Assembly: GCA_014055495.1 (NCBI GenBank)
Contig: WIAG01000022.1
Location: forward strand, 1-58,894
DNA length: 58,894 nt
Source: Nitrospira sp. CR1.2
GTDB taxonomy: Bacteria; Nitrospirota; Nitrospiria; Nitrospirales; Nitrospiraceae
Direction: 5' to 3'
The notes beneath the pieces are model-generated. The model made no database searches. It was not told the DNA's origin and saw only the letters and a program-made list of their open reading frames with translations. Positions 4,383 through 51,989 of the stretch are shown piece by piece. Position 1 is the first letter of the stretch, and each line of letters begins with the position of its first letter. The position numbers were made by a program, and so were the translations under genes.

Positions 4383-4501
4383 GGCATCACTCGTCTCTCG
4401 TCTCTCGTGAAGCGGCCCTCGAGGTACGTATCTCGCAGCGGCCGAAAGGTCGGCAGGATTCCCTCCTCCCGTTTTACGTCTGGCGTCCCCCGTTTCACCT
4501 T
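4383..4501 (-). repeat. Word-repeat spacer between porA and porB
   Basis: On the minus strand this spacer is built of short related words: GTGAGACGTGAAATG (starting inside porA), GGTGAAACG, GAGATACGTACCTCGAG and ACGAGAGACGAGAGACGAG. The same words recur at 9343-9422, about 20540-20575 and 51855-51925. It is not an exact tandem repeat but a degenerate series. Confidence 0.6.
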
Positions 4502-5740
4502 TTACATTTCACGTCTCACGCTTCCTGCCGCCACCATCTGCAATTGCGTCATCTCCCGATGTTCCTCGGCACTATAGAGCAACACCGGACCGCGACCTGT
4601 TCCGCTGATACCGGCCTCCGCGGTCTGTTCAAAGACGGCCTGAAATGCGCCGTCCGACAGCTGCTGGCCGCCTAACCCACCGACGAAAGAGCACAGGGCC
4701 CGTGGCCTGGCGGTCTCGTGGTACAAACAGGCGGCGACTTCTTGATAAAGAATCCCGCCCTGCCCCGGCGCCAGGTTCTGATCCAGCACGGCCACGGCCC
4801 GTCGCCCGCGTAACGCCTGTCGAATCGCATCAGCCGGCCAGGGTCGAATCACCCGCAGTCGAAGGAGACCGACCCGCTTTCCCCGCGCTCTGGCTGCGTC
4901 GACCGCCGCCTTCCCTGTACTTGCCCCCGCATTGGTCATCACGAGCACGTCTTCCGCATCATCCAACCGGTACCCTTCGACCAGGTCATACCGGCGACCG
5001 AACAGGGCGTGGAACGATTCCGCCGTCTCGCGATGCACTTCGAGCGCATTCCGGGAGGCCAGATGCACCTGATGCCGGAAGTACGCATAGGTGGTTCCGC
5101 CGATCACGGCCACACCCAACGCATGCGGCGACGAGGCCGTGAACCCGAGGTGAAACGGGCGGAAGGGCGGCAAAAACCGTCGTACGCTGTCCGGATCGGG
5201 CACTGTGACCGGCTCGCGCGTGAACGACAGCGTAAACCCATCCAAGTTCACGATCACCGGTAACATCACCCGTTCATCTTCCGCGATCCGGTAGGCCATC
5301 AGAATCGAATCCAAGACTTCCTGGCAGGTCTCGGCGTGAATCTGCAGAAACCCGGCGTCGCGCGCCGCCAGCACGTCATTGTGATCCGACTCCAGGGTAA
5401 TCGGTGCGGCCAGGGCCCGCGAGACATTGACCAGCACGAGCGGTGCACGCCACCCTGAAATGGAATAGAGCACCTCGAACGCATGCAGCAACCCTTGGCT
5501 GGAGGTCGCCGTGAAGACTCGCGCACCGGTCACTTCCGCCGCACCGGCCGCCGTCATCATGGAATGTTCGGAATCCATGCTCACGAATCGCGCGGCCAAC
5601 TCCCCGCGTTCACACCACGTGGCCAAGGTTTCTACGATTTCCGTCTGCGGCGTGATGGGAAACGCCGGGATATAGTCCACGTCGGCCAGCCGGGCGCCCC
5701 AGGCCGCCGCCAGGTTCCCGGTCATCATTTGGCTGTCCAT
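4502..5740 (-). CDS. porA: Pyruvate/2-oxoacid:ferredoxin oxidoreductase, alpha subunit
   Basis: The 412-residue protein has the pyrimidine-binding domain I signature (IPAFPITPQTEIVE near residue 25, then FVSMDSEHSMM and TATSSQGL) and the transketolase-C-like domain II (LRLRVIRPWPADAIR, VAVLDQNLAPGQGG). With PorB it forms the TPP active site. The ATG at 5740 has AGGAAGG upstream and overlaps the porGD stop by 16 bases. A longer frame to 5791 lies entirely inside porGD. The last residues, SVRREM, are encoded by the repeat-like sequence that fills the porA-porB spacer, so the C-terminus may have been remodelled by it. Confidence 0.92.
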   Translation of the reverse strand: MDSQMMTGNLAAAWGARLADVDYIPAFPITPQTEIVETLATWCERGELAARFVSMDSEHSMMTAAGAAEVTGARVFTATSSQGLLHAFEVLYSISGWRAPLVLVNVSRALAAPITLESDHNDVLAARDAGFLQIHAETCQEVLDSILMAYRIAEDERVMLPVIVNLDGFTLSFTREPVTVPDPDSVRRFLPPFRPFHLGFTASSPHALGVAVIGGTTYAYFRHQVHLASRNALEVHRETAESFHALFGRRYDLVEGYRLDDAEDVLVMTNAGASTGKAAVDAARARGKRVGLLRLRVIRPWPADAIRQALRGRRAVAVLDQNLAPGQGGILYQEVAACLYHETARPRALCSFVGGLGGQQLSDGAFQAVFEQTAEAGISGTGRGPVLLYSAEEHREMTQLQMVAAGSVRREM

Positions 5741-8982: not shown

Positions 8983-9342
8983 TCAGAACGCCACATTCCG
9001 GTCGCGCTCAGCCACGGCCTTGATGTAGTCGGCCATACCCTTGATCGTGGCGCCGGCGACGAGATCCGCCCCGCTGATTTGACGAGCAACCGCACAAGCT
9101 CCACAGACCCAGATGGGAATCTGCGCCGCTTGCACCGCGGCCAACAACTCTTTCAACGGAGTGAGATTGACGCCGGTCACGTGGTCGGCTGTGCCCTTGC
9201 GCCCCAGTGTCACGGCCTCGTTCCACAACCAGAGCACCACATCATGCCCCTGCTCCTTCGCCGTCTTGGCTGCCATAAACAGTAACGTCGCCATCGTCGG
9301 ATCATCGGTACCACGACTACCGGAAATCATAAACGTCGCCAC
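8983..9342 (-). CDS. DsrE/F-like small protein
   Basis: The 119-residue protein has the DsrE/F fold pattern: VATFMISGSRGTDDP, a helix MATLLFMAAKTAKEQGHDV, the WVCGACA loop near residue 80 and a C-terminal GATIKGMADYI. Such proteins act in sulfur relay or are of unknown role. The GTG at 9342 is chosen because AGGAGG ends six bases before it; the TTG at 9348 abuts the ribosome site. The spacer to the tetrahaem gene upstream is a word-repeat. Confidence 0.75.
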   Translation of the reverse strand: MATFMISGSRGTDDPTMATLLFMAAKTAKEQGHDVVLWLWNEAVTLGRKGTADHVTGVNLTPLKELLAAVQAAQIPIWVCGACAVARQISGADLVAGATIKGMADYIKAVAERDRNVAF

Positions 9343-9422
9343 GCGCAACCTCCTTCGCTCGCCGTTCGTATCTCGTCGTTCGTCCGGAACGTTTCACGAG
9401 ATACGTTTCACGCTTCACGTGC
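9343..9422 (-). repeat. Word-repeat spacer (GTGAAACG / GAGATACG family)
   Basis: Immediately after the TAA of the tetrahaem gene the minus strand reads ACGTGAAGCGTGAAACG, then TATCTCGTGAAACG and GACGAGATACGAACGG, before the AGGAGG of the next gene. The words match those at 4383-4501 and 51855-51925. The spacer separates two co-directional genes. Confidence 0.65.
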
Positions 9423-10838
9423 TTATTTCGCCAAACTTCTGATATAGGCGATCAACTGCCACACCTGGTCATCCGGCAACCCGGCGAACGACATCATGCC
9501 CGTTCCCGCCGAGCCATTTTTAATGATCCAGAACAGCTGCCCATCCGGAAGATCCTTCATCATCGAGCCACAGGTGAAGTTTCTCGGCGGCGGAATCAAG
9601 GCCGCCCCCATGAAGCCCTGCCCATTGCCCTTGTCGCCATGGCACATCGCGCAGGCCACTGGCTGGGCCGTCTGGAGAAACAGCGTTTTCCCCGCCTTGA
9701 TGGTCGCATCCAACTGCGGCAACGGATTGGTCTTGGACAGAAACTCAGCCGGCGCCTTCGCCGTTTTCCGAGGCTGCGGGCAGACCCCGCTCGGACCTTC
9801 ACCGGACCCTGCGGCTGCCTGTGCGACTTCCGCTTGGCCCTTGAAGGTGGCCTTCAGATACGCCATCACGTCGGCCACGCCTTGTTGCCCGATGGTCAGG
9901 CCCCAATAGGGCATATTCGGCGACTTGCCCATCGCCGCGCCACCATGATTGATCACGTTGTAGAGATAGTCGGTCGGCACCTTGTCGAACGGAATGTTGG
10001 CATGGATAGCCGGTTTTGGGTCCAACCCCGAGGCGGCCGGACCATCGCCCTTTCCGGTGAACCCATGGCACTGGGCGCAATATTCTTTGTACAGCACCTT
10101 TCCTCGATCGACACTCGCCATGCCGAACTCAGGCGCCGTCCACGGTTCGTAATACTTGAAGTCCTTGACCCCTTGTACCGCCAGAAACCCGATGACCGCC
10201 CGCAATTGCGGCTCCGTGGCATCGGCCAGGAACTCACCCGTATGGACGATAAAATCCTGGGGGTTTTGTCCGAAGCGGAAGAGCCAATCCATGTTGTACC
10301 GTTGCCCGGAAGCGGCCAACGAGATACTTTGCGGTCCGCCGATCAGTTTGCCGTTCTCTTCGATCAGATGACAGCCCAGGCAGGCATGCGCCTTGTACGC
10401 CATGCCCCCGAAGGTCGCGTCGAACTTGCTGATTTTGGAGAGATCGAAGGCCCCCACCGTCACCCGCGAATCCTTGTTGTGTTGCTCGAAATACTCCGCA
10501 ATACCCTGAGCTTCATCCTCAGTGACGACCGGGTGCCGAGTCGGCCCCTCGGACAAATCCCATCGGTATCCTTTGGGATAGAGCGGGGCCTCTTTCCCGG
10601 TCAGGTATCGCAGCAACCACGCGCACTGATACTTACTCCCTGCCCAAATGAGGTCCGGTGCTTTGAGGTTGAAGCGTGATTCGGCTTTCCCTTCCAGGCG
10701 GTGACATCCGGCACAGTTGTTCTGGATCATCTCCTTGACGCGCGTCTGATCACTGCCTAAGAGCAAGCGGGGAAATGAAAACAACCCCACCAACATGACC
10801 AAGGCGCACCCGATCATCACCGTCCGTCTTCCACCCAT
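9423..10838 (-). CDS. Tetrahaem cytochrome c built of class I domains
   Basis: The 471-residue periplasmic protein has an N-terminal hydrophobic segment (signal or anchor, residues 7-28) and four haem sites in order: CAGCH near 42, CLGCH near 153, CAQCH near 250 and CAMCH near 395. Each lies in a separate cytochrome-c-like unit; the last contains PPPRNFTCGSMM...LFWIIKNGSAGTGM, very like the monohaem protein at 7315-7884. A low-complexity Ala/Gly/Pro linker lies before the last unit. The modular layout suggests gene fusion of small cytochromes. Likely periplasmic electron conduit; partners unknown. Confidence 0.88.
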   Translation of the reverse strand: MGGRRTVMIGCALVMLVGLFSFPRLLLGSDQTRVKEMIQNNCAGCHRLEGKAESRFNLKAPDLIWAGSKYQCAWLLRYLTGKEAPLYPKGYRWDLSEGPTRHPVVTEDEAQGIAEYFEQHNKDSRVTVGAFDLSKISKFDATFGGMAYKAHACLGCHLIEENGKLIGGPQSISLAASGQRYNMDWLFRFGQNPQDFIVHTGEFLADATEPQLRAVIGFLAVQGVKDFKYYEPWTAPEFGMASVDRGKVLYKEYCAQCHGFTGKGDGPAASGLDPKPAIHANIPFDKVPTDYLYNVINHGGAAMGKSPNMPYWGLTIGQQGVADVMAYLKATFKGQAEVAQAAAGSGEGPSGVCPQPRKTAKAPAEFLSKTNPLPQLDATIKAGKTLFLQTAQPVACAMCHGDKGNGQGFMGAALIPPPRNFTCGSMMKDLPDGQLFWIIKNGSAGTGMMSFAGLPDDQVWQLIAYIRSLAK

Positions 10839-17284: not shown

Positions 17285-17370
17285 TCCACTCCCAGATCTC
17301 AGTGTTGAATCGCACCTGTTGCAATTGACATCCCGTTGCAACTCACAACTCACCACTCACCGCTACGCAC
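17285..17370 (-). repeat. Word-repeat spacer between Rieske and cytochrome b genes
   Basis: On the minus strand the words GTGGAGTTGTGAGTG, GGTGAGTGGTGAG and TTGTGAGTTGCAACGGG follow one another, starting in the last codons of the Rieske gene. It is the GTGAG(T/G)TG variant of the degenerate intergenic words seen elsewhere in the window. Confidence 0.5.
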
Positions 17371-17922
17371 TCACAACTCCACACTTTCTGTCAGCCCTGA
17401 CTTGAAGTCCTTATACATGACGAGGAGCCGACCCCCTTCCACCTTGGAGGGCAGGACATCCAGCGGCCGCGGTGCCGGGCCGCCGGTCACCCGCCCGTTG
17501 ACGTCGAAGGAACTACCATGACAGGGACAGAGAAACTTTTGCGCACCGTCATCCCATCGATACCCGCAACCCAGGTGCGTACAGATCGGGGAGAATACCT
17601 GCACCTCGCTTTCGGAACGCCGGACAGCCCACACCGCCTTTTGTGCCTTGGTTTCCATCCATCCGTCCCGGATGGTGGTGACATGGTCCAACTGCATAGG
17701 CCGGCCGAGAGGCAACTCCGCCACCCCGCCAACATCCACCCAGTCACGCTTCCGCCTGCTCAGGGCCGGCGAAATCAGCGAGCCCAGCAACGGAACCGCC
17801 AACCCCATCCCCACAAAGCCCGCGGCAGCCACTGTCACCCAATGGAAGAAGGTTCTCCGGGTCCCGACCGGTGTCGACAGACCTGCGCCTTCACTGCTGT
17901 GCGTGTCGTCAGAGTGATTCAC
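17371..17922 (-). CDS. Rieske iron-sulfur protein of the bc complex
   Basis: The 183-residue protein has a membrane anchor preceded by a twin-arginine-like RRTFFHWVTVAAAG (residues 22-48). The [2Fe-2S] ligands are Cys114 and His116 in CTHLGC and Cys132 and His135 in CPCHGSSF, with the disulfide Cys119/Cys134. It transfers electrons from quinol at the Qo site to the cytochrome c domain. It is the first of the pair with the cytochrome b-c gene. Its last codons (VEL-stop) lie in the repeat-like spacer. Confidence 0.94.
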   Translation of the reverse strand: MNHSDDTHSSEGAGLSTPVGTRRTFFHWVTVAAAGFVGMGLAVPLLGSLISPALSRRKRDWVDVGGVAELPLGRPMQLDHVTTIRDGWMETKAQKAVWAVRRSESEVQVFSPICTHLGCGYRWDDGAQKFLCPCHGSSFDVNGRVTGGPAPRPLDVLPSKVEGGRLLVMYKDFKSGLTESVEL

Positions 17923-20539: not shown

Positions 20540-20575
20540 TCCTGACGAGGTACGTTTCACGATTCCAGCTCCACG
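20540..20575 (-). repeat. Short copy of the GTGAAACG word repeat
   Basis: The spacer between rnk and the OsmC gene holds ATCGTGAAACGTACCTCG on the minus strand, matching words in the spacers at 4383-4501 and 9343-9422. Short and imperfect, so the assignment is weaker than for the longer copies. Confidence 0.4.
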
Positions 20576-51854: not shown

Positions 51855-51925
51855 ACCGTTGTTCGTATCTCGCTGTTCGTCGTCGGTCCTTCGTATCTCA
51901 TCGTCCGTATCTCATGAAGAGTAAG
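51855..51925 (-). repeat. Word-repeat spacer (GAGATACG family)
   Basis: On the minus strand: GAGATACGGACG, ATGAGATACGAAGGACC and CAGCGAGATACGAACAACGG in sequence. Same words as at 9343-9422. Lies between convergent CHASE3 and CopD-like genes. Confidence 0.55.
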
Positions 51926-51989
51926 GAGTCAGTTTTCTTCGCGCTTCACGGAACTCGTGAATGCCGCTGGTGGACATTTCCCCAACCTA

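Follow-up and report, generated by a model that had tools for sequence, protein, structure and literature searches.

Between the genes of the DNA analysed here, a stretch of 58,894 nucleotides from Nitrospira sp. CR1.2 (the window), short recurring words were identified which probably represent degenerate heptanucleotide tandem arrays of a known kind, residing in intergenic DNA and evolving by slippage. These arrays possess a tandem period of 7, locate to spacers, differ in 7-base steps between orthologous spacers and follow a two-arm polarity, whereby words of the type CGT-nnnn form the 5' arm of an element and reverse-complement words of the type nnnn-ACG its 3' arm.

A sequence-only reading of the window had reported such words at 4383-4520, 9343-9422, about 20540-20575 and 51855-51925, and their presence at these coordinates was confirmed. 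What had been described there as mosaics rather than tandem copies was however found to consist of tandem 7-base units, namely GTGAARC and GAGATAC, with CG at every unit boundary. The following features were assigned:

4390..4436, minus strand: 3' arm of site A (GAGATAC, GCTTCAC, GAGAGAC, GAGAGAC), its end lying 7 bases ahead of the start of a TPP-enzyme (POR beta-type) gene
4491..4520, minus strand: 5' arm of site A (GTGAGAC GTGAAAT GTAAAAG GTGAAAC), extending over the final codons and stop of the PFOR alpha-type gene located upstream
9361..9382, minus strand: 3' arm of site B (GAACGAC GAGATAC GAACGGC), preceding a DsrE-family gene; the spacer folds with z -2.5
9383..9389, minus strand: centre of site B (TTCCGGA)
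9390..9419, minus strand: 5' arm of site B (GTGAAGC GTGAAAC GTATCTC GTGAAAC), 3 bases past the stop codon that ends a cytochrome c gene
17339..17385, plus strand: another heptamer array in a spacer, unit CAACTCA, unrelated to GTGAARC and also found by TRF
20545..20561, minus strand: site C, consisting of one 5'-type arm alone (GTGAAAC GTACCTC) and flanked by a GreA/GreB-family (Rnk-like) and an OsmC-family gene
51860..51950, minus strand: site D, decayed and located in a convergent spacer, with GTGAAGC followed by GAGATAC words, three in number
51950..51988, minus strand: terminal part of a longer interspersed repeat with heptamer arms, in a diverged copy (77.5 percent across 40 columns)

TRF also reported period 7 at 4390-4408, i.e., in the 3' arm of site A. 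The PFOR genes of the window match N. moscoviensis weakly at the DNA level, and no match to Rfam was obtained for the window. The longer interspersed repeat, with the sequence CTAGCAGGATGCGGAAAAAGTCCGCCAGCGGCGTTCTCG..., looks like a MITE.

Within the window alone the word counts barely or marginally exceed chance, while genome-wide enrichment is strong. In the window, CGTGAAACG was seen three times with 0.77 expected, a count reached by 6 of 100 shuffles, and with one mismatch allowed CGAGATACG was seen 20 times as compared to 13.6. The genome (4.06 Mb in 167 contigs) was therefore considered through a sample of 459 kb, the window included, and later of 840 kb (21 percent), with genes being called by a home-made codon-usage finder, for which reason start positions are approximate. 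Enrichment of the reported 8-mers in spacers, as had been proposed for checking, was borne out in the 459 kb sample, where GAGATACG and GTGAAGCG rank first and second of all 8-mers: the former occurs 24 times in 65 kb of spacer (1.55 expected) and 5 times in 366 kb of coding DNA, the latter 29 times in spacer (3.0 expected) and 20 times in coding DNA. In the same sample GTGAAACG was found 17 times in spacer with 2.3 expected; GAGACGAG, likewise named among the recurring words, is not enriched in spacers (5 versus 4.0). When a 16-base word tandem was searched with at most two mismatches, 46 copies were found in the 4.06 Mb genome, as compared to 3 of a reversed control.

The 7-base period was documented by counting arrays: 145 kb of spacer contain 13 of them, compared with a single one in dinucleotide-shuffled spacer and likewise in 660 kb of coding DNA; in two relatives the spacers yielded 11 and 21 period-7 arrays and the respective shuffles none. 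No excess of spacer arrays was found in the own genome for periods 6 and 8-12, and that for period 5 was negligible. Being tandem with period 7, intergenic and variable in unit number at orthologous loci, the arrays behave as heptanucleotide intergenic simple sequence repeats. Self-complementary heptamers, i.e., mini-hairpins, were considered as the cause of the period and rejected, as self-complementarity in the units does not exceed that in shuffled ones.

Read between the CGs, the words of the 5' arm are TGAAG, TGAAA, TATCT, TCTCT and TCGTT, and those of the 3' arm are their reverse complements. The centre separating the arms comprises 5 to about 100 bases (all spacers with at least two words inspected), and element centres are unrelated to each other except in copies of the longer repeat. 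Among word pairs located 21-150 bases apart, the T-then-A order was found 108 times and the A-then-T order once, and exclusion of the longer interspersed repeat left 80 pairs versus 0, it being understood that arrays within one genome are not independent. Counted by spacer in three genomes, 25 of those with both arms showed the CGT-then-ACG order and none the reversed one; two were mixed, one of them apparently being that of site A, where GAGATAC is followed by GTACCTC. The strand orientation noticed in the sequence-only reading, where it was called strict, is in fact this arm polarity, since both word orientations occur within one element, in a fixed order and alike on both strands. Genome-wide the words show no strand preference, with 23 copies of the 16-base tandem on each strand, and the apparent minus-strand bias results from the genes of the window being mostly on that strand (54 of 59 gene calls).

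With respect to neighbouring genes, the position between genes holds, while the earlier statement that the words always lie beside stop codons was too strong, given a median distance of 108 bases from the upstream stop in same-direction spacers. Word choice taken in gene direction differs modestly between the arms, TGAAN accounting for 28 of 41 words in the left arm and, as reverse complement, for 19 of 50 in the right arm (p 0.006). As each unit contains a TGA and its length of 7 is no multiple of 3, a reading frame entering a GTGAAAC array soon stops; arrays can set the 3' ends of genes and make for fast-changing spacers. A filter on translation by outward stops was rejected as sole explanation of the polarity, since in same-direction spacers arrays with stops in sense (20) are as common as those with stops in antisense (22).

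Comparison of orthologous spacers revealed how the arrays change. When orthologues of spacer A sharing at least 80 percent identity were paired, multiples of 7 made up 49 of the 59 pure gaps, whereby such pairwise comparisons are not independent, and the length classes of this spacer in congeners were 119, 140, 98, 70, 63 and 49 (divisible by 7) next to 76, 55 and 41. As orthologous spacers differ by multiples of 7, whole units are gained and lost, and the left and right arms change independently; copy-number change was observed as a difference between species. At spacer A one congener possesses ten copies of AACCTGA, a homogenised variant unit, and in several congeners the TGA stop of the upstream gene belongs to the first unit. 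In spacer B, 16 of 60 pure gaps are of 7 bases, the remainder being mostly short, and the spacer is one unit off its nearest relatives (80 versus 87 bases), while in other congeners it was found replaced by unrelated palindromes, another heptamer family included. Some congeners carry a wholly different spacer. The 7-base steps and the ten-copy variant unit speak for slippage, one of the two origins previously offered for the words; mobility, the other one, holds in part: the site at 51855 lies in a decayed copy of the longer repeat, and most other elements, given their unrelated centres, are no simple copies of each other. As a separate observation, the spacers of relative G135 are rich in AAACCAAACAAAC-type words, with irregular length, and form a different spacer family.

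Taking these findings together, it is suggested that short palindromic seeds would sit between genes, their 5' side carrying words of the type CGT-nnnn and their 3' side words of the type nnnn-ACG, and that each arm would gain and lose whole 7-base units on its own, most likely via strand slippage or unequal exchange in replication, the words being presumably diversified by point changes. A minority of copies would travel within the longer, MITE-like interspersed repeat, and some single spacers, such as that of site B, may depend on a hairpin or acquire one again and again, heptamer arms being able to provide it. What we infer from these data is slippage as the molecular mechanism, an origin from short palindromic seeds and a near-neutral maintenance. 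It speaks against this explanation that slippage alone predicts neither the fixed arm polarity nor the recurrence of this polarity in other phyla, and so do the mostly short gaps of spacer B and the wholly different spacers of some congeners.

An unlikely alternative is that REP/BIME-like or MITE-like mobile palindromes are present, each two-arm element being a copied unit moved by a transposase. In its favour, about 40 matches in the own genome were obtained for the longer repeat, whose core bears heptamer arms; about 20 of them are nearly full length to a 116-base query composed from observed copies, and in two neighbouring pairs the 45-base end of the repeat is inverted at a distance of about 195 bases. 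In addition, over 60 bases the whole element of site B matches unlinked places in congeners with approximately 75-90 percent. The MITE traits of terminal inverted repeats and of several near-identical copies are present in this longer carrier repeat and absent from most heptamer elements. Outside of the longer repeat the centres are unrelated and the arms vary by whole units, which does not agree with a defined stem-loop of 20-40 bases copied as a unit in the manner of REP/BIME. Moreover, the heptamer words are absent from the 3 kb loci of the genome's four Y1 transposase matches, and among relatives the number of arrays does not track the Y1/RAYT family, as one genome (G112) has 63 arrays and no match while another (G110) has no arrays and 6 matches; an association with RAYT of the REP/BIME kind was hence not found, neither at the loci of the own genome nor in relatives.

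Slightly less probable still is the idea that the elements are transcribed hairpins, serving as terminators or as stabilisers of mRNA 3' ends and kept by selection on RNA structure. It derives its strength from spacer B (orthologues of window 8985-9800), where a hairpin is kept in most of 26 congener spacers despite replacement by unrelated palindromes (mean z -1.95), and from the folding of the 26 two-arm elements, which is somewhat stronger than that of mononucleotide-shuffled versions (mean z -1.5). Spacer A, in contrast, is without structure (mean z -0.31), word-bearing same-direction spacers fold like others (-0.56 versus -0.35), so that a general folding excess of word-bearing spacers was not found, and no terminator-like site, i.e., a GC stem followed by a T run, lies at the arms of site A or of site B. 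The lowest density of words in divergent spacers (0.31 per kb versus 1.4 and 1.8) also speaks for this idea, but counted per spacer this depletion is not significant (p 0.43). Swapping of arms finally ruled out that they are co-adapted for RNA pairing, as own partners pair no better than swapped ones (-13.6 versus -15.6 kcal/mol), with 1966 of 2000 permutations being as good or better. A general role as RNA hairpin, terminator or stabiliser is consequently not supported, whereas local use of a hairpin at site B is plausible. That the arms are not co-adapted, and that the CGT/ACG frame and order are kept while the inner bases vary, would agree with binding sites of a protein reading CGT every 7 bases in a fixed inward orientation, the polarity then reflecting facing half-sites; yet the elements differ widely in copy number and in the length of arms and centre, and some congeners are without arrays, which renders this explanation very improbable.

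The arrays are not confined to the genome under study. Of 198 genomes of the phylum, 53 contain (GTGAARC)3 when at most two mismatches are allowed; most of these belong to the same family, and genomes rich in the repeat occur sporadically beyond it. Of the same-family relatives sampled, nearly all carry the repeat. When named genomes were scanned for exact matches, at least 119 stretches were obtained, Nitrospira moscoviensis and other Nitrospira included, and the matches listed comprise Chloroflexi, Desulfobacterota, Verrucomicrobia, Acidobacteria, Omnitrophota and Bacteroidota as well as Xanthomonas. The arm polarity recurs there: among the matches listed from other phyla, a reverse-complement partner within 150 bases was located downstream of GTGAARC arrays 42 times and upstream 3 times, and for tandem partners the counts were 18 versus 0 (reversed control motif 3 versus 2), in a set that was chosen by the unit GTGAARC and in which some stretches share one genome and are not fully independent. 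A wider de novo survey of facing pairs gave 34 versus 1 in favour of outward stops for GTGAAAC-like units and 19 versus 5 with 6 ties for units other than GTGAARC, i.e., a weaker rule. It is a tentative and rather doubtful proposal that heptamer arrays of unrelated phyla obey one polarity law, with facing arms and the stop-carrying strand (GTGAARC) always as 5' arm; if true, this would point to a shared, undescribed process or factor building or filtering such arrays. In Chloroflexaceae Prado088 many adjoining heptamer families were observed (GTACTGC, GAACTGC, AAGTATG and others), some arrays changing their unit along their length.

In a literature search covering few subscription journals, no paper with the word GTGAAACGTGAAACG or describing such arrays in Nitrospira was found, nor an earlier description of the facing-arm polarity. 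Seven-base spacer repeats as such are already known, while the polarity rule, not found described, is apparently new. Kept across phyla while the words change, the fixed two-arm polarity is a constraint for any explanation and lends itself to computational testing on thousands of genomes.

Among known systems, the heptanucleotide repeats of cyanobacteria go by the name STRR, and are not known to possess a facing-arm architecture. Those of the Calothrix type consist of 7-base units in short spacer arrays, as here, with units other than those found here. Cyanobacterial heptanucleotide tandem repeats (Calothrix) are also cited in PMC4692102, according to which heptamers are over-represented in the spacers of many bacteria without an accepted reason and Xanthomonas and Nostoc possess the intergenic heptamer repeats GGGAATC and GGGGA(T/C)T. 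The latter resemble the arrays described here in being degenerate intergenic tandem heptamers whose unit number differs between related species, mostly between the same gene pairs, but have a G-rich unit and form single-array runs, and no inward two-arm rule was found noted for them (PMC4692102). Intergenic heptamer repeats were also reported for Chloroflexus (PMC6749651). The GTAG- and CGTC-tagged REPs are similarly palindromic and intergenic and prefer convergent or same-direction spacers, but are defined stem-loops of 20-40 bases with a tag and not tandem heptamers (PMC3733652). Finally, the TAACTGA repeats of marine Beggiatoaceae share with the Nitrospira elements the heptamer arrays between genes and the patchy occurrence across phyla, while differing by one nearly invariant unit which is nearly always in direct orientation and mostly lies few bases upstream of start codons (PMC4679880).
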